This document shows, in pieces, positions 1,015 to 21,853 of a stretch of 64,000 bases of DNA. The translations under genes were made by a program, and so were the position numbers. Each line of letters opens with the position of its first letter. The first letter of the stretch is position 1. A model generated the notes under the pieces. It did no database searches, had not been told where the DNA came from, and saw only the letters and a list, made by a program, of their open reading frames with translations. The stretch comes from Syntrophaceae bacterium (GTDB taxonomy: Bacteria; Desulfobacterota; Syntrophia; Syntrophales; PHBD01): the NCBI GenBank assembly GCA_013177825.1, contig JABLXX010000001.1:1030936-1094935 (forward strand), written 5' to 3'.

Positions 1015-2229
1015 ATGAAAAAGAGGACTGTCTTGACCGCCCTCGTGGCGGGGTTGCTGATCGGCCTGATCGTCGTGGCCGGTTCATGGGCTGCGGACGT
1101 GCGGGGAGTCGCGGACAAGTCCGTCAAGATCGCCTGTCTGGTCGATCTGTCCGGGCCGGGCAAATACGGTGGGCCCCCGGTGGCCGACGCCTTCCGGGAC
1201 TATGTTGCCTGGGTCAACGACACAGGCGGCGTTCACGGCCGGAAGATCGACCTGATCGTCGAGGACAACGGCATCCTTCCCAGCACGACCATGGCCGCGG
1301 CCCGGAAGGTCCTCCTGAAGGACGGCGTCTTTGCCATTGCCTTCAACCTGGGAAGCGCCGGCGCCAGCGCCATCGTGCCGCTCTGCGAGGAAAACAGGGC
1401 CGTCCTCATGCCCCACGGGGCGAACAAGAAATTCTACCAGCCGGGAAACAAGTGGGTCTTCGTGCCTCACACGGCGCAGTTCGACATGGCGACCCGGGCG
1501 GTGGAATACATCCTGGAGAAGAATCCGCGGGCGCGGATCGGCATCATCTACCAGGACGACGACTTCGGCCGGGAGGGCCTGGACGGCGCCCGTGCGGCGG
1601 CGGCCTTCAAAAAGACGGCCCTCGTGAAGGAGGCGCCTTACAAGACGGGAACGATCGACTTCACCCCCCACATGAACGCCATGCGGGACGCAAAGGTGGA
1701 CACCATCGTCCTGTGGACCTATTTGCCCCAGTCGGCGGCCATCATCAAACAGAGGGCGAAGATGGGCTGGAGCGTCAGCCTGATCTCCAACAACACCACG
1801 GGGGTTCCGCCCCTTTTCGCCCTGGCGGGGGAGCAGGCCGACGGCTACATGCTCGTGACGCCCTATGCGCCGGGCTGGATGGACCTCCCGGGAATCAAAC
1901 GGATCAAGAAGATCAACGCGAAGTACGGCAACGTGCAGAAGACCCTCGGAAACCCCGCCTATCCGGACTATCTCTACCTGGCCGCCTGGGGCTACATCGA
2001 GGCGTTTGTCGAGGGGCTCCGGAAGGCCGGCCCCAACCTGACGCCGGACACCTTCGTCCGAGGTCTGGAGAGCATCCGCAATCACGACATGGGCGGTCTG
2101 TGTCCGGACATCACCTTCGGGCCGAAGCGGCACGTCAGCAGCTTCTCCAGCCTGATCCTGAAGGCCGACGGCAAGAAGAAGCGCTTCGTCATCGTCGATC
2201 CGATCCGGGAGCCGAAAACGCCGCGCTAG
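1015..2229 (+). CDS. ABC transporter substrate-binding protein (LivK/Peripla_BP_6 family)
   Basis: Periplasmic ligand-binding protein of the HAAT importer, 404 residues. The start at 1015 follows a strong AAAGGAGG site and gives a clear signal peptide: basic MKKR, a hydrophobic helix (about residues 6-24), then cleavage near GSWA-AD. The mature part opens with the typical first strand and loop VKIACLVDLSGPG, and later shows the GIIYQDDDFGREG segment of the bilobal fold. It lies directly after the permease, so the two probably share a transcript, and both precede a CoA-dependent catabolic operon. The frame is open further upstream to about 205, but that portion lies inside livM in another frame and is not coding. 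Ligand is unknown; an organic acid is as likely as an amino acid. Confidence 0.92.
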   Translation: MKKRTVLTALVAGLLIGLIVVAGSWAADVRGVADKSVKIACLVDLSGPGKYGGPPVADAFRDYVAWVNDTGGVHGRKIDLIVEDNGILPSTTMAAARKVLLKDGVFAIAFNLGSAGASAIVPLCEENRAVLMPHGANKKFYQPGNKWVFVPHTAQFDMATRAVEYILEKNPRARIGIIYQDDDFGREGLDGARAAAAFKKTALVKEAPYKTGTIDFTPHMNAMRDAKVDTIVLWTYLPQSAAIIKQRAKMGWSVSLISNNTTGVPPLFALAGEQADGYMLVTPYAPGWMDLPGIKRIKKINAKYGNVQKTLGNPAYPDYLYLAAWGYIEAFVEGLRKAGPNLTPDTFVRGLESIRNHDMGGLCPDITFGPKRHVSSFSSLILKADGKKKRFVIVDPIREPKTPR

Positions 2230-2397: not shown

Positions 2398-3309
2398 ATG
2401 GAAGCGCCGGCGGCGATCCGGACGGAACTGACGGAGATGCTGGGCATCGACTACCCCATCATCGGGGCGCCGATGTTCCTTGTCTCTTTTGAAGAACTGG
2501 CGGCGGCCGTCTCGATGGCCGGAGGGCTGGGGACGCTTCCGCTGCCCAATTTCCGGACCGTCGGCGACCTGAGGAAGTCGCTCGAGGCGGTCCGTCGCGC
2601 CACCGACCGGCCCATCGGGGTGAACATCCACCTGTCGGGCAAGTTTGACTGGCGTGAGCAACTGGCGGTCTGCCTGGACTACGGCGTCCGCTTCTTCCTG
2701 ACCTCCCTGGGAGACCCGCAGCTGATCCTCGACGCCGTCCATGGAAAGGGCGGCGTCGTCTTCGCCGATGTCGTTTCGCTTCGCCAGGCCGTCCGTGCCG
2801 GTGAGAAGGGCGTCGACGGCCTGGTGGCGGTGGGCTCCGCCGCGGGCGGGCATTCCGGGACGACCCCCACGATGATTCTCGTTCCCTATCTGAAAGCAAA
2901 GACCGGCCTGCCCGTCGTGGCCGCCGGGGGCGTCAGCACCGGCGCCCAGATGGCGGCGGCCCTCGCCGTCGGAGCCTGCGGCGTCGTCGTGGGGACCCGG
3001 CTCATCGCCACCCCGGAGGCCCGGGCGGCGGAGGCTTACAAGGATGCCGTCGTCAGGGCCGATCCCGACGATATCGTCGCGAGCGACCGGATCACCGGAA
3101 ACCCGGCCAATTGGCTGGAAGAGAGCATCCGGGCCTTCGACGAGCGGCCCGACCCCGCCTCGAAGCGCTGGCGGGACTTTTGGAGCGCCGGCCGCAGCGT
3201 GGCCCAGACGGAGGAGATCCGCCCCGCCGGGGAGATCGTCCGGGAGATGGCGGCGTCCTACGTCGAGGCGGTCCTACTCCTTGGCGGCACGCTTGCGGGA
3301 AACCGCTGA
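2398..3309 (+). CDS. Nitronate monooxygenase / FabK-like FMN oxidoreductase (NPD family)
   Basis: TIM-barrel FMN enzyme of the 2-nitropropane dioxygenase group, 303 residues. N-terminal YPIIGAPMFLVS is the usual first strand and FMN loop. GSAAGGHSGT near residue 152 carries the family His and Gly-rich phosphate contact. VVAAGGVSTGAQMAAALAVGACGVVVGTR is split over the second FMN-phosphate site. Members oxidise nitronates, or act as enoyl-ACP reductases (FabK) or as enzymes of uncertain role in acyl-CoA gene clusters. The ATG at 2398 sits immediately after a GGGGGGAGGGG ribosome site. It lies 168 bases after the binding protein and before the repeat-rich gap, on the same strand as the catabolic operon. 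Reaction cannot be set from sequence alone. Confidence 0.85.
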   Translation: MEAPAAIRTELTEMLGIDYPIIGAPMFLVSFEELAAAVSMAGGLGTLPLPNFRTVGDLRKSLEAVRRATDRPIGVNIHLSGKFDWREQLAVCLDYGVRFFLTSLGDPQLILDAVHGKGGVVFADVVSLRQAVRAGEKGVDGLVAVGSAAGGHSGTTPTMILVPYLKAKTGLPVVAAGGVSTGAQMAAALAVGACGVVVGTRLIATPEARAAEAYKDAVVRADPDDIVASDRITGNPANWLEESIRAFDERPDPASKRWRDFWSAGRSVAQTEEIRPAGEIVREMAASYVEAVLLLGGTLAGNR

Positions 3310-3929: not shown

Positions 3930-4694
3930 TTGGATACTTCTTACTTGGCCCTGGAAGGAAAGGTGGCCCTGGTAACGGGCGGGAGCCGCGGGATCGGCAA
4001 AGCCATCGCTCTGGCCCTGGCCGATGCGGGGGCGGACGTGGCGGTCAGCGCCCGGAAACTGCCGGACCTGGAGAAAGTGGCGGAGGAGATCCGCGCCAAA
4101 GGGCGGCGCGCCCTGGCCGTCTCAGCCCATGTGCGCGAGATGGAGGCCATCCGCAACATGGTGGAGACCGTCAAGAACGAGTTCGGACGGATCGACATCC
4201 TGGTAAACAACGCCGCCACGAATCCCGGCATGGGGCTCCTCGTGGACATGGAAGAGAAGATGTACGACCAGATTATGGTCACCAATCTCAAGGGCTACAC
4301 CATGACGAGCATCCTGGTCGGCAAGATCATGCAGGGCCAGAAGAGCGGTAACATCATCAACATCTCCTCGGTAGGCGGCGTGTCGCCGGACATCGGCCTC
4401 GGCCTCTACTGCATCAGCAAGGCCGGCATCAACATGCTGACCCGGGCGATGGCAAAGGAACTGGGGCCCTACGGCATCCGTGTCAACTGCATCGCCCCCG
4501 GCGTCGTACAGACCAAGTTCAGCCAGGCCCTCTGGACGAACGAGCCCCTGCTGAAGCAGGAGATGGGCCATACGCCCCTCGGACGGATCTCCCAGCCGGA
4601 AGAGGTGGGCAGGGTCGCCCTGTTCCTGGCTTCGGACGCCTCGTCCTACATGACCGGCCAGATTCTCGTGGCCGACGGCGGCGGATCCATTTAG
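3930..4694 (+). CDS. Short-chain dehydrogenase/reductase (SDR, classical)
   Basis: NAD(P)-dependent oxidoreductase, 254 residues. TTG at 3930 is chosen as start because AAAGGAG lies 7 bases upstream and it gives the normal SDR N-terminus; an upstream ATG at 3828 would add 34 residues of unrelated sequence. Motifs: TGGSRGIG cofactor loop (16-23), NNAA (93-96), and catalytic Ser147, Tyr160, Lys164 in ISS...YCISK. The C-terminus has the usual SDASSYMTGQILVADGG. It is the first gene of the catabolic run and probably oxidises a hydroxyacyl-CoA or a cyclic alcohol intermediate. The nearest families are 3-oxoacyl-ACP reductase and gluconate/secondary-alcohol dehydrogenases; the substrate is unknown. 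Confidence 0.88.
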   Translation: MDTSYLALEGKVALVTGGSRGIGKAIALALADAGADVAVSARKLPDLEKVAEEIRAKGRRALAVSAHVREMEAIRNMVETVKNEFGRIDILVNNAATNPGMGLLVDMEEKMYDQIMVTNLKGYTMTSILVGKIMQGQKSGNIINISSVGGVSPDIGLGLYCISKAGINMLTRAMAKELGPYGIRVNCIAPGVVQTKFSQALWTNEPLLKQEMGHTPLGRISQPEEVGRVALFLASDASSYMTGQILVADGGGSI

Positions 4695-4787
4695 CGGTCA
4701 AAACCAAGCGCCCGGCCCCGCGGGCTGAAAATGAGGATCGGGGACCGGCCTTCGACGAGGCCGACCAAATCAAGGAGGCAAATCGAC

Positions 4788-6233
4788 ATGGGTTTGATGA
4801 CAGCGCAGGAGTACAGGGACAGTCTGAACGACGGCCGTATCGTCTACTACAAGGGCCGGAAGATCGAGAACGTGGCGACGGATCCCGATCTGATGGCCTG
4901 CGTCGAGACCGTTGCCGTCGATTATCTGATGGCCCACGATCCGCAATACAAGGATCTGGCCCTCGTCTATGACGAGGAACTGGGAGAGAACATCAGCCGT
5001 TACAATCACGTGCCGAAGAACGGCGAGGACCTGCTCAAGCACCTGGAGCTCATCATCAAGGCGACGGAGCTGGGCGACGGCTACATTCCCCTGGCCCACG
5101 ACATCGGCGCCGACGCGATGAACGCCATCTCCATCACCGCTCGGACGATGGGGGATGCGGGGAAGGTTTACCTGGAGCGGATCGAGAACTACCGGAAGTA
5201 CCTGAAGAAGACCGACAAGTGCGTCGTCGCCGGAGTCACCGACGTGAAGGGCGACCGGAAGCTCCGGCCCTCCGACGCGGGCCAGGCCCACCCGGACTTC
5301 CATGTCCGGGTCGTCGACAAGAACGACGAGGGCGTCATCGTCCGGGGCGCCAAGGTCCACATCACCGGGGCGGCCTACTGCAACGAGTTCTTCGTCATCC
5401 CCTGCCGGGCCATGAGCGGGCCGGAAGACGCCCCCTACGCGATCGCTTTCGCCATCCCGGCGAACACCAAGGGGATCCGCCAGATCGTCCGGCCCTTCCA
5501 CGGGCGGATCAGCGATATGGAGTTCCCCCTCGAGAGTCCCCTCCGCCGCATGCACACGGACTCCCTGATCATCTTCGACGACGTCTTCGTTCCCTGGGAC
5601 CGGGTCTTCCTGTGCGGCGAGTGGAAAATGGCCGCCACGATGGTCTACAACTTCGCGCTGATGCACCGCCGTACGGGCTGCGCCTACCGCATCCCGCTGA
5701 GCGAGCAGCTGCTGGGAGTCGCCGTGGCCATCGCGGATTACAACGGCGTGAGCGACGCCCCCCACGTCCGGGAGAAGATCACCGAGCTGGTCATCTACCT
5801 GGAGACCCTCTCGGCCCTGTCGCGGTCGGCCTGCCTGGATTTCGTGAACCACGCGGGGATCCCGGTGCCGAACCCCATCACGACGAACATCGCCAAGTAC
5901 CACTTCGCCCACAACTATCACAAGGTCTGCGAGATCATCCAGGACCTCGCCGGCGGCCTCCTCGTGACGGCGCCGACCTACAAGGACTGGCAGAATCCCG
6001 AGACCCAGGCAGACATCAAGAAGTACCTGCAGGGGAAGGCCTCCGTTCCGACGGAGGACCGGCTGCGGATGTTCGACCTGATCCGCCGGATCACCTCGGC
6101 GGACCTGGAGACGATCTGCCTCCATGGCGAAGGCTCACCCTTCGCCGAGCGGATGACGATCTTCATGGAAGCCAGGAAGATCATCGGCCGGTGCAAGGGC
6201 ATCGCCGAGAATCTGGCAGGCATCAAGAAGTAA
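4788..6233 (+). CDS. HpaB/AbfD-family flavoprotein lacking Fe-S ligands
   Basis: Member of the 4-hydroxyphenylacetate 3-hydroxylase / 4-hydroxybutyryl-CoA dehydratase superfamily, 481 residues, acyl-CoA-dehydrogenase-like fold with FAD. ATG 4788 follows AAGGAGG by 9 bases. The N-domain signature TDVKGDRKLRPSDAGQAHPD and VRGAKVHITGAA are plain. In AbfD the [4Fe-4S] cluster is held by Cys99, Cys103, His292 and Cys299. By hand alignment this protein has Pro101, Asp105, His293 and Tyr300, so only the His remains. The monooxygenase residues Arg100/Tyr104 of HpaB also have no counterpart. It is therefore probably neither a true hydroxybutyryl-CoA dehydratase nor a standard phenol hydroxylase. Its place between an SDR and a thiolase-like gene suggests a CoA-thioester dehydration, isomerisation or oxidation. 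Confidence 0.85.
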   Translation: MGLMTAQEYRDSLNDGRIVYYKGRKIENVATDPDLMACVETVAVDYLMAHDPQYKDLALVYDEELGENISRYNHVPKNGEDLLKHLELIIKATELGDGYIPLAHDIGADAMNAISITARTMGDAGKVYLERIENYRKYLKKTDKCVVAGVTDVKGDRKLRPSDAGQAHPDFHVRVVDKNDEGVIVRGAKVHITGAAYCNEFFVIPCRAMSGPEDAPYAIAFAIPANTKGIRQIVRPFHGRISDMEFPLESPLRRMHTDSLIIFDDVFVPWDRVFLCGEWKMAATMVYNFALMHRRTGCAYRIPLSEQLLGVAVAIADYNGVSDAPHVREKITELVIYLETLSALSRSACLDFVNHAGIPVPNPITTNIAKYHFAHNYHKVCEIIQDLAGGLLVTAPTYKDWQNPETQADIKKYLQGKASVPTEDRLRMFDLIRRITSADLETICLHGEGSPFAERMTIFMEARKIIGRCKGIAENLAGIKK

Positions 6234-6381
6234 CCGGGCGGCGGGCGGGGACCCTTTCCCCCGCCCGCCGACTCCCGGGTATCACGGGAAACAGGACGTC
6301 TCGCAGTGGAGGAGCGGCCGCGCAGACCGGCGGGTCCGTCAGCGGCGGGTTCTCGGCACGACGCGAAGCAAGGAGGAAAGC

Positions 6382-7566
6382 ATGAGCAAGCTGAAAGGAA
6401 AGGTCGCCATCGTCGGGATCGGCGAGGTGCCGACAGGCCGTTTCCCCGAGACGGCGGCCATCTACCACGGCATGGCCTCGGCCAAGATGGCCATCAGGGA
6501 CGCCGGGATCGACAAGGACGAGATCGACTACGTCATGCCGACGGGAGCCCTCTACAGCCCCGCCTTCAACACGGAGCTCGTCACCTGCCGCATCGCCGAG
6601 GAGCTGGGCCTCAAGAACGTGAAGAAGAACTGCCAGATCTTCGCCGGTGGCTCCAGCAGCACCTGCGCCCTCGAGATCGCGGCGGCCCTGATCTACAGCG
6701 GCGCCGCGTCGATGATCCTGTTCGTCCACGCGGATAAGCTGGGCACAGGTGTCACCGCCCAGGGGGCCATCGACCTATTCTCCACGGCGGGCATCTCCGC
6801 CGAGTGGGAGGTTCCCTACGGCCAGCACTATTCCGCGGTGACCGCCCTCTCGACGATGCGCTACATGTACGAGACGGGCTGCACCGACGAGCACATGGCG
6901 GCGGTCTGCGTCTCCAACCGGAAGTGGGCGGAGTTGAATCCGAACGCCTTCTTCCGCAAGCCCCTCACGATCGAGGAGGTCGTCAAGTCCAAGATGCTTT
7001 CCACGCCGCTTCGGGCCAAGCAGTCCAACATGCTCTTCGACGGCGGGGCGGCCTTCATCGTGACCTCGGCCGAGCGGGCGCGGGACCTCGTGGAGAAACC
7101 CGTTTATCTGCTGGGAGAGGGAGGAGTGGTCACCCATTTCGTCTATTCCCAGGAGCCCGATGTATCCCGGTTCGGCTGGGCAAAAGCGGGCCGGATGGCC
7201 TTCGAGGAGGCGGGACTCACCGCGGCGGACATGGACCTCGCCGAGATCTACGACTCGTACCCCATCTTCCAGATCATCGGGTTCGAGGAACTGGGCTTCT
7301 GCAAGCGCGGCGAGGCGGGGGAAATCTTCCTCCGGGGAGAGACGTGGCCGGGAGGCAGGATCCCGTGCACCACCAACGGCGGCATGCTCTCCCAGGGCCA
7401 CACGGGAGCCGGTGGCTCCGTGGCGCTCCTGGTGGAGACGGCCCGGCAGCTCATGGGCAAGGCGGGGGATCGCCAGGTGCCGAACGCCCGCTTCGCCGTG
7501 GAGACGGCCGTGGGCGGGACGTACATGGACGCCCAGGTGTCCATTCTCGGAACAGAGATCCCTTAG
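6382..7566 (+). CDS. Thiolase-like (SCP-x/Ltp type) protein without nucleophilic Cys
   Basis: Thiolase-fold protein of the lipid-transfer/SCP-x branch, 394 residues, start at 6382 behind AAGGAGG. Fold markers include VGIGEVPTGRF, the C-terminal NGGMLSQGHTGAGG and the tail AGDRQV. The active-site Cys of thiolases falls at Gly90 (or Ser91) in AGGSSSTCAL. The His of the HDCF motif is Tyr in EIYDSYPI. The GH motif is kept and the final CGGG Cys is absent. Claisen chemistry is therefore unlikely. Proteins of this kind paired with a DUF35 protein include Ltp2, which does a retro-aldol cleavage of a steroid side-chain CoA with ChsH2. The next two genes encode DUF35 and MaoC proteins, the same set. 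Aldolase is the favoured reading, as inference. Confidence 0.85.
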   Translation: MSKLKGKVAIVGIGEVPTGRFPETAAIYHGMASAKMAIRDAGIDKDEIDYVMPTGALYSPAFNTELVTCRIAEELGLKNVKKNCQIFAGGSSSTCALEIAAALIYSGAASMILFVHADKLGTGVTAQGAIDLFSTAGISAEWEVPYGQHYSAVTALSTMRYMYETGCTDEHMAAVCVSNRKWAELNPNAFFRKPLTIEEVVKSKMLSTPLRAKQSNMLFDGGAAFIVTSAERARDLVEKPVYLLGEGGVVTHFVYSQEPDVSRFGWAKAGRMAFEEAGLTAADMDLAEIYDSYPIFQIIGFEELGFCKRGEAGEIFLRGETWPGGRIPCTTNGGMLSQGHTGAGGSVALLVETARQLMGKAGDRQVPNARFAVETAVGGTYMDAQVSILGTEIP

Positions 7567-7580
7567 AGAGGAGGAACGAC

Positions 7581-7997
7581 ATGGACGCACCGAAGAAACC
7601 CGTACCCGTGGTGAACCCCTGGGCGAAACCCTTCTGGGATGCCGCGAAGGAAGAACGGTTCATCATCCAGAAGTGCACGGATTGCGGAAAATACATCTTC
7701 TATCCGCGGATCGCCTGCCCCCACTGCTTTTCGGACAATGTGGAGTGGGTCCCCGCCTCGGGCCGGGCAACCGTCTACACCTACACCGTCGTCGAGAGCA
7801 ATGCCCCCTCGGCCTTCATCGCCGACATGCCCTACGTCGTTGCCGTGGTCCGGCTCGAGGAGGGCGGAGTGCAGATGCTGACCAACATCGTGGGCTGCAA
7901 GCCCGAGGATGTCCGCTGCGACATGCCCGTGGAGGTCGTCTTCGAACAGCTCAACGACGACTTCAAACTGCCCAAGTTCCGCCCCGCGGCGAAGTAA
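7581..7997 (+). CDS. DUF35 zinc-ribbon/OB-fold partner of the thiolase-like protein
   Basis: 138 residues, ATG at 7581 behind AGAGGAGG, 14 bases after the thiolase-like stop. The N-terminal helix (PWAKPFWDAAKEERFIIQKC) is followed by a rubredoxin-like zinc ribbon with two CxxC pairs, CTDC and CPHC (about residues 32-51). An OB-fold follows, with YTYTVV and the MPYVVAVVRLEEGG strands. DUF35 proteins form tight complexes with thiolase-like enzymes, shape the CoA channel and are needed for their stability or activity (HMG-CoA synthase/thiolase in archaea, Ltp2-ChsH2 in actinobacteria). An open frame extends upstream to 6804 inside the thiolase gene but is out of register with any homology. Identification is strong. 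Confidence 0.9.
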   Translation: MDAPKKPVPVVNPWAKPFWDAAKEERFIIQKCTDCGKYIFYPRIACPHCFSDNVEWVPASGRATVYTYTVVESNAPSAFIADMPYVVAVVRLEEGGVQMLTNIVGCKPEDVRCDMPVEVVFEQLNDDFKLPKFRPAAK

Positions 7998-8014
7998 AGG
8001 GAAAGGAGAAAGCC

Positions 8015-8470
8015 ATGCCGGACAAGTACTGGGAAGATTTCGACCCGGGGTTCCATTTCCAGACCCCGTCGATCACCGTCACGGAGACCCACGTGGTGAA
8101 CTGGGCGGGCCTCACCATGGACTTCTATCCGCTCCACACCGACGAGGTCTACGCCCAGAAGACCGTCTTCAAGGGGCGGATCGCCCACGGCCCGCTGATC
8201 TTCGGACTCGCGGTGGGACTGGCGGCGCAGGCCAAGATCGAGGGCGGGGCCATGATCGCCTGGATGGGGACGGACAACATGCGCATGTTCGCTCCCGTGA
8301 AGCTGGGCGACACGATCACGGTCCACATCACCGTGAAGGAGAAAAAGGAAACGGCCAAGCCGGTCCAGGGATTCCAGGTCTGGCATTACGAAGTCCGCAA
8401 CCAGCGTGACGAAAAGGTCATGTCCCTGGACATGAACTTCCTCATGCACCGGCGGCCCCAGGCGGGTTGA
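8015..8470 (+). CDS. MaoC-like enoyl-CoA hydratase (R-hydratase type)
   Basis: Single hot-dog domain, 151 residues; ATG 8015 follows AAAGGAGA by 5-6 bases. The hydratase-2 signature is present: Asp36 and His41 in DFYPLHTDE, then GRIAHGPLIFGLAVGL around the central helix. MaoC proteins add water to an enoyl-CoA, giving the (R)-3-hydroxyacyl-CoA. In the Ltp2/ChsH systems a MaoC hydratase makes the tertiary 3-hydroxyacyl-CoA that the thiolase-like aldolase then cuts; the same gene order is seen here. It lies 17 bases after the DUF35 gene and 37 bases before an acyl-CoA dehydrogenase, so co-transcription is nearly certain. Confidence 0.9.
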   Translation: MPDKYWEDFDPGFHFQTPSITVTETHVVNWAGLTMDFYPLHTDEVYAQKTVFKGRIAHGPLIFGLAVGLAAQAKIEGGAMIAWMGTDNMRMFAPVKLGDTITVHITVKEKKETAKPVQGFQVWHYEVRNQRDEKVMSLDMNFLMHRRPQAG

Positions 8471-8507: not shown

Positions 8508-9650
8508 ATGGATTTGAGCTTTACGGAACAGCAGAACGCCCTCAGGAAGACCGTCCGCGACTTCGTGGAGCGGGAGATGCCCCGGGAGTGGGTCCGGGCC
8601 TTCGACGGCCGGGACGAGTTTCCCCACGACCTTGTCCGGAAATTCTGCGACCTGGACCTGGCGCGGATCAACATTCCCAAGGAATACGGCGGAAAGGGCG
8701 GCGACGTCCTGGACCTGATGATCCTTTTCGAGGAGATCTCGAAGCGCCTGGCGGTCCTTTCCTGGGCACTGGGAAACATCCTCCTCTACGGCAACGAGAT
8801 CATCACCGTAAACGGCAGTGACGAGCAGAGGGCGAAGTACCTCCCGCGGCTGGCGAAGGGCGAGATCATGTTCAGCTTCGGCCTTACGGAGCCCAATGCC
8901 GGGTCCGATGCGGCGAGCATCCGGACGAAGGCCGTCCCGGAGGACGGCGGCTGGGTGATCAACGGCAACAAGATGTTCATCACCGGCGCCGGCGTGACGG
9001 ACTATACCGTCACCTTCACCCGGACGAGCGAATCCAAGTATAACGGGATCACCGCCTTCATCGTCGACACGAAGCTGCCGGGATACAGCACGCGCCCCGT
9101 CGAGAAGCTGGGCTACCACGGCTCCAACACCTGCGAGGTCAACTACGACAACGTTCGTGTACTCCCCGAGGACATCCTGGGCGGCGAGAAAGGTTTAAAC
9201 AACGGCTGGAAACAGGAGATGAAGCTCCTCAACCAGGAGCGCCTTGTCCTGTCGTCCTGCTGCATCGGCATCGCCGAGGCGGCCGTCAAGGACGCCCTGG
9301 CTTTCGCCGCCGAAAAGATCAAGCGGAGTGCCGGGACCGACACCCAGTCCCTCCAGCACACCCTGGCGGAGATGGCCACGGACCTGGAGGCGATGCGGCA
9401 GCTGGCCTATTCCGCCGCCTGGAAGGAGGTGCAGCGGATGCAGCCGGTCCTGGAGACCTCCATGTCCAAGTACTTCTGCGCCGAGACGGCAAAGAAGATC
9501 TGCCTGCGCGGCATCAACGTCATGGGGGAGTCTGGTTCTCTCATGACCCACGACATGCAGCGCTATTTCCGGGACATCCTGATCCTGGCCATCGGCGGGG
9601 GGACGTCCCAGATCCAGAAGAACATCCTCAGCAAGGTCCTGGGGATGTAA
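8508..9650 (+). CDS. Acyl-CoA dehydrogenase with IVD-position Glu
   Basis: FAD-dependent acyl-CoA dehydrogenase, 380 residues, ATG behind AAAAGGAGA. N-terminal FTEQQNALRKTVRDF, middle FSFGLTEPNAGSDAAS (FAD and substrate loop) and NGNKMFITGA are standard. The usual catalytic Glu of the C-terminal YEGT motif is missing: the site reads AIGGGTSQIQ. A Glu is present at residue 244 in NQERLVLSS, the helix-G position used by isovaleryl-CoA and long-chain dehydrogenases. The enzyme is therefore probably active, with geometry suited to branched or bulky acyl chains. It would make the enoyl-CoA that the upstream MaoC protein hydrates. An electron-transfer flavoprotein is expected as acceptor but is not in the window. 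Confidence 0.88.
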   Translation: MDLSFTEQQNALRKTVRDFVEREMPREWVRAFDGRDEFPHDLVRKFCDLDLARINIPKEYGGKGGDVLDLMILFEEISKRLAVLSWALGNILLYGNEIITVNGSDEQRAKYLPRLAKGEIMFSFGLTEPNAGSDAASIRTKAVPEDGGWVINGNKMFITGAGVTDYTVTFTRTSESKYNGITAFIVDTKLPGYSTRPVEKLGYHGSNTCEVNYDNVRVLPEDILGGEKGLNNGWKQEMKLLNQERLVLSSCCIGIAEAAVKDALAFAAEKIKRSAGTDTQSLQHTLAEMATDLEAMRQLAYSAAWKEVQRMQPVLETSMSKYFCAETAKKICLRGINVMGESGSLMTHDMQRYFRDILILAIGGGTSQIQKNILSKVLGM

Positions 9651-9870: not shown

Positions 9871-11520
9871 ATGCAGAGAAACTGGGAACAAAACTGGCCC
9901 AAGCAGGACCCCCTGGTCCCCCCCCTTCCCACGGAGCCTATTTTTGAACTGATCCGCAAGCAGGCGAAGATCCGGCCCGACAAGACGGCCATCCTGTTTT
10001 ACGGACATGAAACGACCTTCCAGGAACTGGACGACGCCACCGATCGCCTGGCCACGGCCCTCGTGAACATGGGCCTCGGGAAGGGCGACCGGATCGGCCT
10101 CTACTTCGAGAACTGTCCCCAGTTCGTCATCGGTTTCTACGGCATCCTGAAGATGGGCGGCATCGTCGTGAACGTAAGCCCCATGTACAAACAGGATGAA
10201 CTCGTTCATGAGCTGAAGGACGCGGGGGTCGAGACGATCATCATGGAGGACTTCTTCTGGCCCGTCCTGGAGCCTGTCATCGGCGAATGCGGACTGAAGA
10301 ACATCCTCGTCACGAGTTTCGCCGACTATCTGCCGGAAAAGCCGACGATCCCCCTGCACGCCTCCATGTCCACGGAGAAGAAGAGCATTCCCGGCACCAT
10401 CGACTTCAAGAGCCTCATCGAGAAGACACCCGCCAATCCGCCGAAGGTGGAGATCGACCTGGAAAACGACGTGGCCCTGCTCCAATACACGGCGGGGACG
10501 ACGGGATCCCCCAAGGGGGCCATGCTGACCCACGGCAACATGGCGGTCCACAATCTGGCGGTGCGCCATTACTATGAGTACACGGAGAACGACGTCCACC
10601 TGATCATCCTGCCCCTGTTTCACATTACCGGCCTGGACATTGCCATGAACCCGGCGCTGGCGGTGGGGAGCACCCTGATCCTCTTCGCCCGGTTCGACCT
10701 CCTGCCCATGCTGGACGTAATCCAGAAATACAAGGTCACCGGGTGGGTCACCATCACGCCCATCAACGTGGCCGTCTGCAACCTGCCCATCATCGGCAAC
10801 TACGACCTGAAGTCCCTCCGCTTCGTCCTCTCCGGCGGCGCCCCGGTTCCGCTGGAGATCCACAAGCGCTGGAAGGAGCTGACGGGGACCCACATCGTGG
10901 AGGGTTACGGCCTCTCCGAGTGCACGGGCGGCATCGTGGGCAACAACTGCCAGAACTTCTCGCCGGGCACCATCGGCAGCCCCGTGTTCTGGCACGACGT
11001 GAAGATCGTCCATCCCGCCACGCCGGACAAGGAAGCCGGCATCGGGGAGGAGGGCGAGCTCTGGATCAAGGGACCCTGCGTCATGAAGGGCTACTGGAAT
11101 GCCCCGGAGCAGACGAAGAACACCATCACCCCCGACGGGTACCTCATGACGGGGGACATGGTTACGGTGGACAAGGACGGCTGGTTCCGCATCGTCGGAC
11201 GGGCCAAGGAGATGATCAAGGTCTCCGGGTTCTCCGTCTTCCTGGCGGAGATCGACGCCTTCCTGTACCAGCACCCGGCGGTCGCCGAGGCGGCGGCCAT
11301 CGGTGTTCCCCATCCCTACCGGGGAGAGGAGCCCAAGGCTTATGTCGTCCTGAAACCCGACTTCAAGGGCAAGGTCACCGAGCAGGAGATCATCGACTGG
11401 TGCAAGGACAAGATGGCGGCTTACAAGGTGCCCGCCTCGATCGCGTTCACGGACGGTCTGCCCAAGAGCGGGGCGGGAAAGGTCCTGCGGCGGCTGTTGG
11501 CGGAACAGGAGAAAAAATAA
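9871..11520 (+). CDS. Acyl-CoA synthetase (AMP-forming), first of three
   Basis: ANL-superfamily CoA ligase, 549 residues, ATG 9871 behind AAAAGGAGAGG. It adenylates a carboxylic acid and transfers it to CoA. Motifs: P-loop YTAGTTGSPKGAML (about 208-221), EGYGLSE (about 346), TGD (about 428), hinge region GRAKEMIKVSG, and C-terminal catalytic Lys in SGAGKVLRR. Full length. A 220-base gap separates it from the preceding dehydrogenase, the longest within the run, so an internal promoter is possible. Closest in style to medium/long-chain fatty acid and aryl-alkanoate ligases; substrate unknown. Confidence 0.9.
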   Translation: MQRNWEQNWPKQDPLVPPLPTEPIFELIRKQAKIRPDKTAILFYGHETTFQELDDATDRLATALVNMGLGKGDRIGLYFENCPQFVIGFYGILKMGGIVVNVSPMYKQDELVHELKDAGVETIIMEDFFWPVLEPVIGECGLKNILVTSFADYLPEKPTIPLHASMSTEKKSIPGTIDFKSLIEKTPANPPKVEIDLENDVALLQYTAGTTGSPKGAMLTHGNMAVHNLAVRHYYEYTENDVHLIILPLFHITGLDIAMNPALAVGSTLILFARFDLLPMLDVIQKYKVTGWVTITPINVAVCNLPIIGNYDLKSLRFVLSGGAPVPLEIHKRWKELTGTHIVEGYGLSECTGGIVGNNCQNFSPGTIGSPVFWHDVKIVHPATPDKEAGIGEEGELWIKGPCVMKGYWNAPEQTKNTITPDGYLMTGDMVTVDKDGWFRIVGRAKEMIKVSGFSVFLAEIDAFLYQHPAVAEAAAIGVPHPYRGEEPKAYVVLKPDFKGKVTEQEIIDWCKDKMAAYKVPASIAFTDGLPKSGAGKVLRRLLAEQEKK

Positions 11521-11592
11521 ACCGATTTCGGGGTGCCGGATCGTCTCCGGTCCGGGCCATCCGGCATCCCGAAACGTGAAAGGATGAAGGAC

Positions 11593-13608
11593 ATGGGAAA
11601 GGCGTTTACCAGCGAGGATCAGGGCGGCATCGCCGTCATCCGGATCGACGTGCCGGGAGAGGCCGTCAACACGTGGACGAACGAGGCCATTGCCGGCTTC
11701 GAGGAGACCCTGGCGGAACTGGAGAAGGACCGGTCGCGCTATCGAGCGGTGGTTTTCTATTCCGGCAAGGCGACGGGTTTCCATGCCGGTGCCAACCTGG
11801 ACATGCTGGGGGAGCAGACGGACATCGAGGCGTTCCGTTCCCGTCTGGCCCATTTCAACGATCTGTTCGGCCGCCTGGAGAACCTCGGCGTCCCTACCGT
11901 GGCCGCCATCAGCGGCCCCTGCATGGGAGGCGGCTACGAGTTTGCCCTGGCCATGACAGCCCGGATCGCCGCGAACGGTCCCCGGACGCAGATCGGACTC
12001 CCGGAGTGCAACGTCGGAGTCATCCCGGGCGGCGGCGGCACCCAGCGCCTGCCCCGACTGATCGGTCTGGGAGCCCTGGAGATGATCGTCCGCGGGGCCG
12101 TCGTTCCCGCCGGCAGGGCCCTGGAACTCGGCCTGGTGGATCGGGTCTGCCCGGAAAAGGAGGATCTCCTGGAGCGGGCCAAAGCCTTTGCAGACGAGAT
12201 CGGCCGGGATGCATCGCTGCTCCGGAGAAGCGCGCCGGACCTCTCCGGCCTGGACGAAGCCGTCGCCGCGGCCCGCGCCCTCGCCCGGAAGGCCGCCCGG
12301 GGCCGGGACCTGCCGGCGCCCCGCCTTGCGATCAAGGCCGTTGAGGAGGGACTGAAGTGCGCTTCCCTCGCGGAAGGGCTGAAGATCGAGACGGAGTGTT
12401 TTCTCGAGGTCCTGGCGACGCCGGAATGCAAAGGCTCCATCAACACCTTCTTCCTGAAGACCTATTCGGACAAGCCTCTGACCATGATCCCCAAAGGGTT
12501 CCATCCCCGGCCCCTGAAGAAACTGGCCGTGCTGGGCTTCGGCACCATGGGACGGGGGATTGTCATCGACATGCTGCGGCGTCTCCAGGTACCGGTCGTG
12601 GTAAAGGATCTCCCCGAGGCCATGGAGCCGGGGATGGCCTTTGTGAAAAAAATCCTGGAGGGCATGGCGGCGAAGGGCCAGCTCAAAAAATCCGTCGATG
12701 ACCTCATGGGGCTGCTCAAGCCGGTGTCGGAATGGACGGCCGATTTCGCCGACGTCGATCTCGTCATCGAGGCGGTTTTCGAGGATCCCGCCGTAAAGGA
12801 GCAGGTCTACGGGGACCTCTGCCGGGCCGTGCCGGAGAACTGCCTGATCGTCAGCAACACATCAAGCCTGCCGGTGGACCGGCTGGCCCGGAGCGTGACG
12901 TTTCCGCAGCGCTTTCTTGGGGCCCATTTCTTTTCCCCCGTCTGGCGCATGGAGCTCCTGGAGATCATCCGGGGAAAGGAGACCACGGACGAGGCGGTGT
13001 ACGATCTCCTGAACTTCGCCGCAGGCCTGCGCAAACGCCCCATCATCTGCAACGATAATCCTGGTTTCGTCGTCAACGCCATGCTATTTCCTTATTTCAT
13101 CAAGGCATACGAGTTGCTGGGGGAGGGCGTGCCCATGGATGCCGTGGACGATGCAATGATGCGGTTCGGCCTCCCCGTCGGCCCGATCCGTCTCACCGAC
13201 GAGGTGGGGATCGACGTGTCCTACCTGGTCCTGACCAAGTCCCTGGGACGGAAGGCGCCGATGGCGCTGGAGAACATCTACAAGGCGGGCCGCTTCGGCC
13301 GGAACAAGAACGGAAAAGGGTTTTACACGAAGGAAGGGGCCGTCGATCCCGAGGCGCTTCCCCTTGTCAATCCGCAGGGGCTGAAGAAGGAAATGAGCGT
13401 CGAGTCCCTCCAGGAAATGCTGTTTCTGCCCTTTGTGGAGACAGGGAAGGAACTGCTCGACAAGGGCGTCGTCAAAGGGCCCCGGGCCGTCGACATCGGC
13501 GCCGTCTGGGGGATCGGCTTTCCCGCCGACAAGGGAGGGCCGCTGAAGTGGGCCGACCTGACCGGGTTGAGCGGGAAGCTTTACGGCAGGAACTTTTACA
13601 AGAGTTGA
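11593..13608 (+). CDS. Bifunctional enoyl-CoA hydratase / 3-hydroxyacyl-CoA dehydrogenase
   Basis: FadB/FadJ-like fusion, 671 residues. ATG 11593 is preferred because AAAGGA lies about 8 bases upstream; ATG 11584 would touch that site. The N-terminal crotonase domain keeps both catalytic glutamates: Glu116 in GGGYEFALA and Glu138 in PECNVGVIPGGGGTQ. The dehydrogenase domain starts near residue 310 with LGFGTMGRG for NAD binding and keeps the catalytic His in GAHFFSPVWRMELLEI; two C-terminal helical repeats follow. It converts enoyl-CoA through (S)-3-hydroxyacyl-CoA to 3-ketoacyl-CoA. With the MaoC hydratase also in the cluster, two hydration routes of opposite stereochemistry are encoded side by side. 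Confidence 0.92.
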   Translation: MGKAFTSEDQGGIAVIRIDVPGEAVNTWTNEAIAGFEETLAELEKDRSRYRAVVFYSGKATGFHAGANLDMLGEQTDIEAFRSRLAHFNDLFGRLENLGVPTVAAISGPCMGGGYEFALAMTARIAANGPRTQIGLPECNVGVIPGGGGTQRLPRLIGLGALEMIVRGAVVPAGRALELGLVDRVCPEKEDLLERAKAFADEIGRDASLLRRSAPDLSGLDEAVAAARALARKAARGRDLPAPRLAIKAVEEGLKCASLAEGLKIETECFLEVLATPECKGSINTFFLKTYSDKPLTMIPKGFHPRPLKKLAVLGFGTMGRGIVIDMLRRLQVPVVVKDLPEAMEPGMAFVKKILEGMAAKGQLKKSVDDLMGLLKPVSEWTADFADVDLVIEAVFEDPAVKEQVYGDLCRAVPENCLIVSNTSSLPVDRLARSVTFPQRFLGAHFFSPVWRMELLEIIRGKETTDEAVYDLLNFAAGLRKRPIICNDNPGFVVNAMLFPYFIKAYELLGEGVPMDAVDDAMMRFGLPVGPIRLTDEVGIDVSYLVLTKSLGRKAPMALENIYKAGRFGRNKNGKGFYTKEGAVDPEALPLVNPQGLKKEMSVESLQEMLFLPFVETGKELLDKGVVKGPRAVDIGAVWGIGFPADKGGPLKWADLTGLSGKLYGRNFYKS

Positions 13609-13757: not shown

Positions 13758-15332
13758 ATGATATTCGGCACGACGGTCGGAGAGCTGTATGACCGGTGCG
13801 TCATGAATTTCAGGCACCGGGTGGCCATGAAGTACCATGACGAATCGTACACATACGACGACATGCAGAAGGCGGCCTACAGCCTGGCGAACGCGCTGAC
13901 GAAGCTGGGGCTGAAAAAGGGAGACACGACGGCGTTCCTGATGGCCAACTGTCCCGAGTACATCTCCTGCGAGTATGCCCTGGCGAAGATCGGCGTGATC
14001 CGGGTGCCCCTGGCGGTCCTGCTGACCAACGACGACCACGTATTCATGATAAACCACGCGGAATGCAAAGCCCTGATCTACCATGAGAAGATGGCGTCCC
14101 GCGTGATGGAGATGCTTCCCCGCCTCAAGACCGTCAAGCACTTGATCTGCATCAGCAAGGACCATGAAAAGATCGCCGAAGGCCATCTGCACCTCCAGAC
14201 GCTGATCAAGGACCATCCTCCGGAGGTTCCGCTCGTGGACATCGACGAGGAAGACCTGGCGGGGATCTACTTCACCGGAGGAACGACGGGCGTTCCCAAG
14301 GGGGTCATGCTCTCCCACCGGGCCTGGACGGGCACGTACATCACCGAGATGCTGGAGTTGGGCTTCGGCTATGACGAGGCGTTCGCCTTCGCGACACCCC
14401 TCACCCACGCGGGGGGCTGCCTGATGATTCCCATCATGATCCGCCGCGGGGTCTGCGTCATCCTCGACGGGTTCGATCCCAAGAGTTTTCTCGCGGCCGT
14501 CGAGAGGTACGGGGTTACATCGACGTTTGTGGTGCCCACGATGATCTATGCCCTGCTCGATTATCCGGACCGGGGGAAGTACGATGTCTCGAGCCTCCGG
14601 AACATCGTCTACGGGGCCGCCGCCATCGCCCCGGAGCGGTTGAAGCAGGCCATCAATACCTTCGGACCCATCTTCACGCAGCTCTACGGCCAGACCGAGG
14701 CGCCCATGATGATCAGCGCCCTGCCCCGGGAGGAGCACGTTATCAAAGACCCGGAGCGGGAGCGGCAGATCTTCAGCTCCTGCGGAAGGCCCACGTTTCC
14801 GGCGATTGTCCGGCTCGTCGACGGTGACGGGAAGGACGTGCCCCAGGGGGAGGTGGGGGACATCGTCTGCCGGCACATCAACGTCATGAGCGGCTACTGG
14901 AAGAATCCCGAGGCCACCGCAGAGACGATCCGTGACGGCTGGCTCTGGACGGGCGACATGGCGAAGATGGACGAGGAGGGGTTCCTCTACATCGTGGACC
15001 GCTCCAAGGACATGGTCGTCAGCGGCGGATTCAACATCTTCCCGCGGGAGATCGAGGACGTCCTTTTCGAGCATCCCGCTGTGAAAGGTGCTGCGGTCAT
15101 CGGAGTTCCCGACGAGAAATGGGGAGAGGCGGTCAAAGCGATCGTCGTCCTCCATGAAGGAAAGACCGCCACGGAGAAGGATCTGATCAACTTCGTGAAG
15201 GAGCGCAAGGGAAGCCTCATCTGTCCCAAGACGGTCGAGTTCTGGGATGCCATCCCGCTGACCAACCTGGGGAAGGTCGACAAGAAGAAGATCCGGGAGC
15301 GCTACTGGAAGGGTTACGAGCGCAGGGTCTGA
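13758..15332 (+). CDS. Acyl-CoA synthetase (AMP-forming), second of three
   Basis: ANL CoA ligase, 524 residues, ATG 13758 behind GAGGAGG. Motifs: FTGGTTGVPKGVMLSH P-loop (about 174-189), YGQTEAP adenine-binding motif, TGD (about 399), VSGGFNIFPREIE after the hinge, and catalytic Lys in TNLGKVDKKK. It resembles fatty-acyl or cyclohexane/aryl carboxylate ligases of anaerobes. Three ligases in one cluster suggest several entry substrates, or re-activation of an acid released part-way through the pathway. Only the family can be assigned. Confidence 0.9.
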   Translation: MIFGTTVGELYDRCVMNFRHRVAMKYHDESYTYDDMQKAAYSLANALTKLGLKKGDTTAFLMANCPEYISCEYALAKIGVIRVPLAVLLTNDDHVFMINHAECKALIYHEKMASRVMEMLPRLKTVKHLICISKDHEKIAEGHLHLQTLIKDHPPEVPLVDIDEEDLAGIYFTGGTTGVPKGVMLSHRAWTGTYITEMLELGFGYDEAFAFATPLTHAGGCLMIPIMIRRGVCVILDGFDPKSFLAAVERYGVTSTFVVPTMIYALLDYPDRGKYDVSSLRNIVYGAAAIAPERLKQAINTFGPIFTQLYGQTEAPMMISALPREEHVIKDPERERQIFSSCGRPTFPAIVRLVDGDGKDVPQGEVGDIVCRHINVMSGYWKNPEATAETIRDGWLWTGDMAKMDEEGFLYIVDRSKDMVVSGGFNIFPREIEDVLFEHPAVKGAAVIGVPDEKWGEAVKAIVVLHEGKTATEKDLINFVKERKGSLICPKTVEFWDAIPLTNLGKVDKKKIRERYWKGYERRV

Positions 15333-15411: not shown

Positions 15412-16566
15412 ATGGATTTCAGACTGACGGAAGAACAGGAAGTGATCAGGGATACCATCCGCCGGTTCATCGCACGGGAATGCACCCGCGATGCGGCCCG
15501 GGAAGCGGACACACAGGGGGGCTTCCCGGAAAAGCTGTACCGTCCCCTGGCCGACAACGGGTTCTGCGGCCTTGTCGTACCCGAAGCGTACGGCGGCGGA
15601 GGCCGGAACGTCCTGGCGGCGGCGCTCATTGTCGAGGAACTGTCGGCCGTCTATCCGGCCCTGGCGGGGGCCTTTGCTGCCTGCGCCTTCGGGGGAGGAA
15701 AAAATCTGGGCGATCTGGGCAGCCCGGAGCAGAAGGAACGCCACCTGCCTTTCGTTGTCGACGGGTCCGCACTGTTTGCCGGCGCCATCCTGGAGCCGGA
15801 CGGGGGGTACGGCCGCTTCGCCGCCGGGATGACGGCTGTTCCGGACGGAGACGGGTTCCTGCTCAATGGAACGAAACAGTTCGTCCGCCTGGCCGGCCGG
15901 GCCGCGGCGATCCTCACCCTGGCCCGGACAGGCCCCGGAAATCCGCCCCGGGAAGGTCTTTCCTTCTTCCTGGTGGACGCGAAGAAGCCGGGAATAGCGG
16001 CCGGAACGGCGGATCTGGTGGGAACCGCGAGCCTCGGCATCGGTGAGGTCCGCTTTGAGAACGTAGCCGTTTCGCGGGAGGACGTCCTGGGCGGCCCGGA
16101 AGGGCTCAATCGGGGCTGGGAGCAGTGGGCGGTGCTGCAGGAAGCGGAACACCTGGAGATTGCCGCCTGCGGGCTGGGGATCGCCCAAGGGGCATACGAC
16201 TACGCCGTCCAGTACGCAAAGGAGCGGGTCCAGTTCGGCCGTCCCATCATTGCCTTCAGTGCCGTGAAAGACATGCTTGTCGACATGGCCGTGCGAATCC
16301 GGGCGGCCCGCCTGGTCGCCCGGCAGGCTGCCTGCCTGGCCGACGAAGAGAAGCGCTGCGCCGCGGAAGCGGCGACGGCCAGGATTCTGGCCGTGGAAAC
16401 GGCCAGGAAGGCCTCCATGGACTGCGTTCAGGTTCTTGGGGGATACGGATACACCATGGAGTACGACGCCCAGCGCTATGTACGGGACGCCCTGGTCCTC
16501 TTCGGCGGTGCAGGTCCGCAGGAGATGCTCAGGGAGGACCTCGGGGAGCTTCTGGGGCTGGGTTGA
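15412..16566 (+). CDS. Acyl-CoA dehydrogenase with IVD-position Glu (second)
   Basis: 384 residues, start behind AAAGGGAG. N-terminal LTEEQEVIRDTIRRF and YAKERVQFGRPI and GGYGYTMEYDAQRYVRD are typical acyl-CoA dehydrogenase segments. The substrate loop is unusual: ILEPDGGYGRFA replaces the common TEPxAGSD. The C-terminal YEGT Glu is replaced (LFGGAGPQEM), while Glu246 in EAEHLEIAACGLG lies at the isovaleryl-CoA-dehydrogenase position. This is the same pattern as the other dehydrogenase of the cluster although the two differ strongly in sequence. It may act as a partner of that subunit or on a later intermediate. Confidence 0.85.
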   Translation: MDFRLTEEQEVIRDTIRRFIARECTRDAAREADTQGGFPEKLYRPLADNGFCGLVVPEAYGGGGRNVLAAALIVEELSAVYPALAGAFAACAFGGGKNLGDLGSPEQKERHLPFVVDGSALFAGAILEPDGGYGRFAAGMTAVPDGDGFLLNGTKQFVRLAGRAAAILTLARTGPGNPPREGLSFFLVDAKKPGIAAGTADLVGTASLGIGEVRFENVAVSREDVLGGPEGLNRGWEQWAVLQEAEHLEIAACGLGIAQGAYDYAVQYAKERVQFGRPIIAFSAVKDMLVDMAVRIRAARLVARQAACLADEEKRCAAEAATARILAVETARKASMDCVQVLGGYGYTMEYDAQRYVRDALVLFGGAGPQEMLREDLGELLGLG

Positions 16567-21700: not shown

Positions 21701-21853
21701 TCCCTGCTCCAGTTGGGCCAGGATCTGGGACGGCTTCAGGTCTGCCAGGAGATCCACCAGCCAATCGATGCAGAAATCGTCCCGAAAGAGGGAAGCGATC
21801 ACCAGGGTTTTTTGTCCGTCGAATCCGCTGTTTCCGTTGGAATGGTAATACAC
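18728..21853 (-). CDS. Sigma-54-dependent transcriptional activator with TPR and GAF sensor region
   Basis: Bacterial enhancer-binding protein, 1,041 residues from GTG 21853. That start has GGGGAGG 8 bases upstream; the frame also allows TTG 21910 without a ribosome site. Order: winged-helix-like segment (about 15-100) resembling the arm after a STAND ATPase, TPR-like helices (about 130-480), GAF domain (about 555-720), AAA+ domain with GETGVGKE (about 758), GAFTGA sigma-54 contact loop (about 804) and DEIGE, and a C-terminal Fis-type HTH (LLELPPSTLAFRMKKLGI). It lacks a receiver domain, so control should be through the TPR/GAF part, perhaps by a CoA thioester or partner protein. It converges on the catabolic operon and is the natural candidate regulator, but no clear -24/-12 promoter was found upstream of it. 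Confidence 0.9.
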   Translation of the reverse strand: MYYHSNGNSGFDGQKTLVIASLFRDDFCIDWLVDLLADLKPSQILAQLEQGVADGSLVRKEPGYYGFASDKKRKRLRATLDPREEKRLHGYIADILMRQLPDNEEKAHAVAHHLIHILNDANRCRYLIKAGDLHLEAFRPEEALQCYSKALEDLAALTGREADGLFSETAIKYSKISTARHDTMKVLSILESALEKATRWKVDRARALLKMHMAKNEWLRSRYGSALRHFEEGWALAQELNDPRVLQSATTFSAFFLFWQGRFQEAVRMYEKAVPDIERYPQGGFPLLAVMTVGYCYAQIGQVTQGLGMLDALRNHGLGKGDLYLAAYTAGNIGNVMLEIGRVDEAIRYLEDSAKMAKRAHNDWVWITGKMSLAYAYYLKGDTEQSLQNLREFLHHTRKVHTTVYLYPYLLELRAAMDRGELPAMEELCLDKDIQAMIGGHNIFLKGVAYRFQAQQWQREGRPREEVIRSLRDSIANIEESGQQIELAKSRLELARQYLAEGDREEAKVLTVMTSETLDAFNDKLIPDELRILLGDRPAGESLLREILNLGQKVVTIQDNRDLVQHILSTLNRITGAERSAIFLLEGVEGEPRPVLRASKNLTSEQVSHGSFASSLKIIEEVAATGKGRILADGTPEKGNGSPGAEVIRSRICVPMILRDKTVGVLYHDNRLLSSAFRESDLDLLSYFAALAAFALDNARAYDEIQRLNRKLCEENLYYKEEHLQNLHFDDIIGDSPGIHRVLAQIDQVTGTDATVMIIGETGVGKELVARAIHRHSTRRDKPFIKVNCSALPESLIPSELFGHEKGAFTGAIRRRLGRFELADGGTLFLDEIGEISLDLQVRLLRVLQTREFERVGGSETIRSDFRLLVATNRNLEMDVKTQKFRPDLYYRLAVFPIYVPPLRERREDIPLLAFHFLRIYAQKRGKEFTKIPEVEMEKLLDYEWPGNVRELENIIERGTILNPGPVFRVPELGSRFSEAPPPGNGVSLMDNERRHILWALQKTKWKVRGKGGAAELLELPPSTLAFRMKKLGIQRPETSS

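Follow-up and report, generated by a model that had tools for sequence, protein, structure and literature searches.

A conserved thiolase-like, DUF35 and MaoC gene trio

This report concerns three adjacent genes, encoding a thiolase-like protein, a DUF35 protein and a MaoC hydratase, and the probable role of the first as an acyl-CoA retro-aldolase. The genes lie in a 64,000-nucleotide stretch of a Syntrophaceae bacterium genome (assembly GCA_013177825.1, contig JABLXX010000001.1, positions 1,030,936 to 1,094,935), which is termed the window and to which coordinates refer unless a locus (L number) is named. The thiolase-fold retro-aldolase candidate (6382..7566, plus strand) comprises 394 amino acids and carries Gly90 in the column of the thiolase nucleophile, a YDSY motif at residues 290–293, and His340. 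It is followed by the DUF35 gene (7581..7997, plus strand; 138 amino acids), which encodes zf-ChsH2 and OB_ChsH2_C domains with a C4 zinc finger (C32-x2-C35-x10-C46-x2-C49), and by the gene for a MaoC enoyl-CoA hydratase (8015..8470, plus strand; 151 amino acids) in which the catalytic Asp36 and His41 are present. The three genes are separated by 14 and 17 nucleotides, respectively, and a purine-rich, Shine-Dalgarno-like stretch was found 5' of each.

Comparison with Pfam gave matches above the cut-off for all three products: Thiolase_C_1 (175 bits) for the thiolase-like protein, zf-ChsH2 (65 bits) and OB_ChsH2_C (83 bits) for the DUF35 protein, and MaoC_dehydratas (77.5 bits) for the hydratase. 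Among the 25 of 33 NCBIfam matches listed for the thiolase-like protein, every model was below its cut-off, the best being PRK06158 (289 versus 421 bits), and these matches bear names such as 'lipid-transfer proteins' and 'acetyl-CoA acetyltransferases'. The nearest solved relative of the DUF35 protein was TcChsH2 (6ok1_B), followed by the partner protein in 9myr.

Named genomes were then scanned with two peptide patterns, which yielded 106 relatives, of which 79 loci were kept. Forty-four of these (L091–L134; 53–97% identity) constitute group A and 35 (L135–L169) served as comparison loci. Of the 41 group-A loci whose contig continues for 0.6 kb or more, 40 have a DUF35 match that begins no more than 0.15 kb downstream, and in the other, L098, it begins at 0.64 kb; a MaoC gene at least 40% like that of the window was present within 3.5 kb downstream in 37 of 40. 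Of the comparison loci, 27 entered the DUF35 count and 26 the MaoC count; five had no THL label and the others end too near the gene. Here, DUF35 was next in 25/27 and a window-like MaoC in 0/26, the two loci without a downstream DUF35 being L148, where DUF35 is upstream, and L152, a fragment. It follows that DUF35 is characteristic of the wider family and MaoC of group A, with the limit that a distant MaoC would be missed. The zinc-finger cysteines were conserved in 40–41 of 41 DUF35 rows, and the MaoC catalytic Asp and His in 39 of 39. The trio is a real, conserved module, and the preliminary description of this DNA was right that DUF35 and MaoC genes follow the thiolase-like gene. The fragment in L152 (10001–10372), on a complete Desulfobacterales chromosome, corresponds to residues 1–124 of a group-A protein (65%) and is either a broken gene or an assembly error.

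Active-site residues of the thiolase-like protein

Active-site columns were read from an 86-row alignment that included solved thiolases. The nucleophilic Cys of the solved thiolases aligned with Gly90, the His of the HDCF motif with Tyr290 and the Cys of that motif with Ser292, and the His of the thiolase GHP motif was retained as His340. When the key columns were recounted on all 44 group-A loci, Gly90, Tyr290 and Asp291 were found in 44/44 and Ser292 in 43/44, and His340 was present in all 43 that reach that position (L132 ends before it). Conservation across 44 loci means that the residue pattern is no chance, and the earlier observation that the protein is without a thiolase nucleophile and has Tyr where the HDCF His would stand is thereby upheld.

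The same columns were followed in groups A–D, which comprise the window and 47 relatives. Gly90, Tyr290 and His340 were each present in 48/48 rows, and position 292 was occupied by Ser, Ala or Gly, with Ala in 3/3 rows of group B, 9/9 of group C and 3/4 of group D. A ten-row thiolase branch had His at position 290 in 10/10 rows and Cys at position 90 in 8/10. In group C, YLAY replaces YDSY in eight of nine rows (L136, L137, L138, L140, L144, L063, L034 and L035), so that the Asp is lost and Tyr290 and His340 are retained.

A phmmer alignment to TcLtp2 (6ok1), counted on the printed alignment, paired Tyr290 with Tyr294 and His340 with Tyr344. In PMC12329534, Tyr294 of TcLtp2 is given as the base and Tyr344 as the acid, and the catalytic pair of CtSal is given as Tyr302 and Cys304, with the C304A, C304S and C304H variants having no detectable activity. 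We infer that Tyr290 would act as base and His340 as acid. On the best reading of these columns, the catalytic pair would be Tyr/His, as against Tyr/Tyr in Ltp2 and Tyr/Cys in Sal.

Phylogenetic position

A quick maximum-likelihood tree of the 86 rows was prepared, with support from the Shimodaira–Hasegawa-like approximate likelihood ratio test (SH-aLRT) and no bootstrap, and with long branches flagged. For the tree and the column counts, group A was represented by 32 rows (29 of the 44 loci, together with the window, g_L058 and g_L079), and nine of 16 own-genome paralogues were included. The tree was split at an SH-aLRT of 100 into 18 and 68 rows. The thiolase side (18 rows) contained 7yvy, 6esq, 7pxp, 6hsj, 4yzo and nine own-genome rows, and the Ltp2/Sal side (68 rows) contained TcLtp2, CtSal, 4u4e and groups A–D. 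Groups A–D formed a single clade (SH-aLRT 100, branch length 0.67) separate from TcLtp2 and CtSal. The placement of this clade relative to Sal and Ltp2 had a support of only 41, and the branch that sets group A apart a support of only 78. The phylogeny proposed beforehand as a check thus places the protein on the side of Ltp2 and Sal, within a clade belonging to neither of them. The sequence features of a DUF35-associated retro-aldolase in the wide sense were found, namely a position in an aldolase-side clade, a putative Tyr base and a DUF35 neighbour. The best solved relatives were 4u4e, CtSal (9myr), 7yvy, 4yzo, TcLtp2 (6ok1) and BbsB (7pxp). No description of the clade of groups A–D was found in a literature that was largely open-access.

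The host genome contains 15 DUF35 matches. At L047–L053 it has thiolase-like genes side by side in pairs, near which one or two DUF35 genes are located, and eight proteins from these stretches form a clade of their own with Tyr at position 290.

Host and distribution

The preliminary description placed the trio in an anaerobe. This is right for the genome in question, that of a sulfate-reducing bacterium: dsrA was found at 566 bits (cut-off 393), and the haem-copper oxidase COX1 was not found, cytochrome bd not having been searched for. It does not hold for the trio in general, which also occurs in bins of the aerobic-type lineages Burkholderiales, Acidimicrobiaceae, Steroidobacteraceae and Rhodospirillales.

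In the order, a match at E ≤ 1e-60 was obtained in 8 of 149 genomes, six of them (the host included) at 79% identity or above; in a sample of the phylum, 27 of 395 genomes had a match, five (the host included) at 70% or above. The 44 group-A loci represent 41 bins by accession, all of them metagenome-assembled genomes, labelled Deltaproteobacteria/Desulfobacterota, Spirochaetes, SAR324, Pseudomonadota, Actinomycetota, Chloroflexota and Bacillota (about seven phyla). Note that a 3.3-kb 'Methanotrichaceae' contig is probably misbinned and that errors are possible in other bins. The gene order flavoprotein-THL-DUF35-MaoC-ACS2-dehydrogenase was seen in L109, L117, L114, L111 and L129, which are from the Burkholderiales, Acidimicrobiaceae, Rhodospirillales and Steroidobacteraceae bins.

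A predicted acyl-CoA dehydrogenase pair

Two acyl-CoA dehydrogenase genes lie downstream of the trio. ACAD1 (8508..9650, plus strand), the predicted alpha subunit, has a helix-G Glu of the type seen in isovaleryl-CoA dehydrogenase (IVD) and long-chain acyl-CoA dehydrogenase (LCAD), and degenerate RxxFG and GGxGY motifs. ACAD2 (15412..16566, plus strand), the predicted beta subunit, keeps both motifs (RVQFG and GGYGY) and also has Glu at the helix-G column. In ACAD1, the helix-G Glu was present in 22/22 rows, with Gly at the place of the usual C-terminal Glu; the ACAD2 rows were divided, 11 of 18 lacking it and seven, including that of the window, having it. LCAD and IVD are described as the two exceptions with a helix-G Glu, LCAD accepting branched and bulky chains, and ChsE4-ChsE5 and ChsE1-ChsE2 as alpha2beta2 enzymes in which one subunit provides the catalytic Glu and the other the adenosine diphosphate (ADP) side of flavin adenine dinucleotide (FAD) (PMC11153573). 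The motifs fit, without proving, a predicted alpha2beta2 pair of ACAD1 and ACAD2 like ChsE1-ChsE2.

Loss of RxxFG in ACAD1 was compared with the presence of ACAD2, leaving out the window row and L097 (a 3.3-kb contig). The motifs were sorted by eye, and the intermediates L100, L106 and L130 were counted as degenerate. ACAD2 was present in 13 of 14 loci with a degenerate motif, the exception being L123, and in none of six with an intact one (Fisher p 1.8e-4); on the ACAD1 tree, however, the association shrinks to a single independent contrast and is therefore one event, not statistics.

Other genes of the neighbourhood

Partner genes were counted in the 31 group-A loci that span 14 kb or more, with identity floors of 45% (38% for ACAD2). 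The acyl-CoA ligase ACS2 was found in 27, ACAD1 in 22, a short-chain dehydrogenase (SDR) in 18, a carotenoid-isomerase-like flavoprotein in 16, NMO in 15, and ACAD2 and HpaB in 13 each. The recurrent neighbour ACS2 lies at 13758..15332 in the window and has FadD8 as best solved match; two further acyl-CoA ligases, ACS1 (9871..11520) and ACS3 (16841..18568), and a FadJ-like hydratase/3-hydroxyacyl-CoA dehydrogenase (11533..13608) are located nearby, all on the plus strand. Upstream of the trio are an ABC permease (2–931, with more Liv-type genes upstream of the window), an ABC substrate-binding protein of the Peripla_BP_6 family (1015..2229), an NMO/FabK-like flavoprotein (2398..3309) and a short-chain dehydrogenase (3945..4694), the last three on the plus strand. 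The carotenoid-isomerase-like flavoprotein (L040:6825–8399) had no solved relative at 1e-3 in phmmer; the host genome holds a copy (L173:9164–10783) ~100 kb from the window cluster.

The gene immediately upstream of the trio (4731..6233, plus strand) encodes a flavoprotein of the HpaB/4-hydroxybutyryl-CoA dehydratase fold. An assignment as 4-hydroxybutyryl-CoA dehydratase (AbfD) was considered and rejected. The columns of AbfD Cys103 and Cys299 were occupied by Asp or Glu and by Tyr, respectively, in 18/18 rows, and the gene is therefore not AbfD; His292 was retained in 18/18 rows and Cys99 fell in a gap of the one pairwise alignment. These AbfD residues we take to be Fe-S ligands. An HpaB monooxygenase is unlikely, because the genome bears dsrA and COX1 was not found in it. 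The protein may be an acyl-CoA enzyme of the pathway that uses flavin only. In L126 (11653–13119), L127 and L128, a relative of the HpaB/AbfD fold (38–41%) stands directly after DUF35.

At L091/L036 (6475–9180), where the aldolase is 97% identical, the aldolase gene is separated from HpaB by a fusion of 3-hydroxy-3-methylglutaryl-CoA (HMG-CoA) synthase with DUF35 and by a thiolase. This pair is absent from the corresponding interval of the window (6233–6382), and a related pair is found elsewhere in the host genome (L174:4467–8355). Beside the catabolic cluster, on the minus strand (18728–21853), is a sigma-54 activator with TPR and GAF domains, a possible regulator. Further along the window, a CHAT-domain TPR protein (40369–43344) adjoins a large autotransporter with PATR repeats (43944–47972).

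Proposed function and alternatives

The alignment, the tree and the gene order together suggest that the thiolase-like protein, with DUF35, is probably an acyl-CoA retro-aldolase that would release a short acyl-CoA from a 3-hydroxyacyl-CoA, together with a carbonyl compound; we infer that the aldolase would form a complex with DUF35. In the proposed pathway, a ligase would form the acyl-CoA, and ACAD1, with ACAD2 as its FAD-binding partner, would oxidize this thioester, whose chain would be bulky or 3-branched, to the 2-enoyl-CoA, and MaoC would hydrate the latter to the 3-hydroxyacyl-CoA. Tyr290 of the aldolase would then accept a proton from the 3-hydroxyl, with cleavage of the C2–C3 bond, and His340 would protonate the acyl-CoA enolate.

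Several observations weigh against this assignment. The tree is a quick one, and the nearest solved relative, ahead of 9myr and 6ok1, is 4u4e, a 'Thiolase' with no stated function. Eight own-genome paralogues with Tyr290 and Gly90 group on the thiolase side, and these two residues alone are therefore no proof of an aldolase; note that three of the eight have Cys one column before position 90, where an alignment shift could make it a nucleophile. The column of CtSal Cys304 is occupied by Ser here, and the CtSal mechanism is therefore not simply transferable. Finally, Cys176 (codon region 6907–6912) is conserved in 40 of 44 group-A loci, with Val or Gln in the other four.

It could be that the protein is a true thiolase with a displaced nucleophile, for instance Cys176 or Cys95, the latter having been named in the preliminary description as the residue that might overturn an aldolase assignment. 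The GHP-motif His is indeed kept as His340. However, Cys95 is Cys in only 18/44 group-A loci, being otherwise Asn, Thr, Val, Ser or Asp, and in 11/48 rows of groups A–D; no Cys column is invariant across those 48 rows, and both Cys95 and Cys176 lie outside every thiolase catalytic column of the alignment. We judge a displaced nucleophile very unlikely. A biosynthetic role seems improbable, whether as a forward (condensing) aldolase or as some other acyl-CoA lyase or a decarboxylase. Condensations are possible on this fold, as in the archaeal thiolase/HMG-CoA synthase, and the sister locus L091/L036 carries the inserted HMG-CoA-synthase-DUF35 fusion and thiolase, but the neighbourhood of ligases, dehydrogenases, FadJ and ABC uptake genes appears catabolic.

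If retro-aldol cleavage is accepted, the nature of the substrate has still to be weighed. A secondary-alcohol aldolase, acting for example after hydration of a phenylpropenoyl-CoA and releasing an aldehyde and acetyl-CoA, would require no more than MaoC and the aldolase, and an HpaB-family gene adjoins the trio. On the other side, ACAD1 is of the IVD/LCAD type, and a search with nine own-genome queries at 1e-8 found no aldehyde dehydrogenase (ALDH) or aldehyde:ferredoxin oxidoreductase (AOR) homologue, either in the window or in the 44 loci; the search had no positive control, and other subfamilies could escape it. The lack of such a homologue mildly favours a ketone product and hence a tertiary alcohol. 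The secondary-alcohol reaction is unlikely. A steroid side-chain aldolase, carrying out an Ltp2- or Sal-type step in anaerobic sterol or bile-acid breakdown, is quite unlikely, even though the dehydrogenase pair, MaoC, DUF35 and aldolase resemble the enzyme kit of the igr operon, and group A includes a Steroidobacteraceae bin (L129) as well as a locus with MMPL and DUF1302 genes upstream (L117). The clade stands apart from TcLtp2 and CtSal and the active-site residues differ; in addition, no 3-ketosteroid dehydrogenase exceeded the cut-off in the host genome (best 132.7 versus 788 bits), a weak negative in that 14 of 14 control genomes were also below it. Given aldolase activity, the chances that the substrate is a tertiary alcohol and the product a ketone are about even.

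A wider reading of the retro-aldolase assignment can be offered tentatively, and we lean somewhat away from it. Groups A–D would constitute a third catalytic class (Tyr/His), and group A would be the core of a laterally spread, oxygen-independent module that cuts bulky, 3-branched, non-steroid acyl-CoAs in sulfate reducers and other bacteria. The new parts of this reading are the Tyr/His chemistry and the 3-branched non-steroid substrate, both hypothetical. To our knowledge, how quaternary and 3-branched carbons, such as those of isoprenoids and naphthenic acids, are passed anaerobically is open for many substrates. A broad-host Tyr/His acyl-CoA aldolase, if real, would be a general answer for branched carbons in anaerobes. 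It would also widen the view of thiolase-like proteins now named 'lipid-transfer proteins' or 'acetyl-CoA acetyltransferases' and offer a biocatalyst for C–C cleavage or formation.

Comparison with known systems

It had been suggested that a similar step would let an anaerobe shorten branched chains that normal beta-oxidation cannot handle. To hold that it would open chains otherwise closed to anaerobes is too strong, because other enzymes have been reported or proposed in anaerobes. ThnQS, an AtuA-like lyase of naphthalene-degrading sulfate reducers, is stated from its authors' unpublished work to open the ring of a tertiary 3-hydroxyacyl-CoA (PMC12016498), and LrcC, an HMG-CoA-synthase-like protein, is proposed from omics for 3-hydroxy-3-isopropenylglutaryl-CoA (PMC12583861). 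Both belong to protein families other than that of the thiolase-like protein. Moreover, one of the figure legends in PMC12329534 lists a Shy of Sterolibacterium denitrificans, an organism termed denitrifying (PMC11061730). A step of the Ltp2 type would be one more way for anaerobes to make such a cleavage, and not the only one. The limonene (PMC12583861) and benzene (PMC13101534) clusters are set apart from the present locus by gene sets that, as described in those papers, differ from it.

Among thiolase-fold systems, the benzoylsuccinyl-CoA thiolase BbsAB (7pxp) and the archaeal thiolase (6esq) share the combination of thiolase fold and DUF35, but both retain the nucleophilic Cys and the HDxF His, where Gly90 and Tyr290 are found here. 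The best solved match, 4u4e (215 bits), shares GGSS, a YDSF motif and His at the column of position 340, and is placed outside groups A–D in the tree. The ChsE1-ChsE2 and ChsE4-ChsE5 pairs share the division of the catalytic Glu and the ADP side of FAD between subunits; the heteromer is only predicted here, however, and the ACAD2 of the window retains its helix-G Glu.

The proteobacterial C5 bile-acid aldolase CtSal-CtShy (9myr) has in common with the present system a Gly at the nucleophile position, a Tyr base and a DUF35 partner. It differs in its essential Cys304 (Ser here, so that its YDCY motif is unmatched), in Gln352 (His here), in clade, and in the Cys3His zinc finger of its DUF35 protein, compared with the ordinary C4 finger (C-x2-C-x10-C-x2-C) encoded in the window.

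The actinobacterial C3 steroid side-chain aldolase TcLtp2-ChsH2 (6ok1) shares the thiolase fold, Gly in place of the nucleophilic Cys, the catalytic Tyr at the HDCF-His position and the DUF35 partner, and the igr operon likewise includes a hydratase and paired dehydrogenases (PMC12502768). The trio had been said to copy the Ltp2-ChsH set. This overstates the likeness: the acid Tyr344 of TcLtp2 is His340 here, in all 48 rows of groups A–D, YDHF is replaced by YDSY, and the clade is separate. Furthermore, DUF35 here is not fused to MaoC, the two being encoded by separate genes with one MaoC whose catalytic residues are intact, and there was no sign of steroids in the one weak test made.

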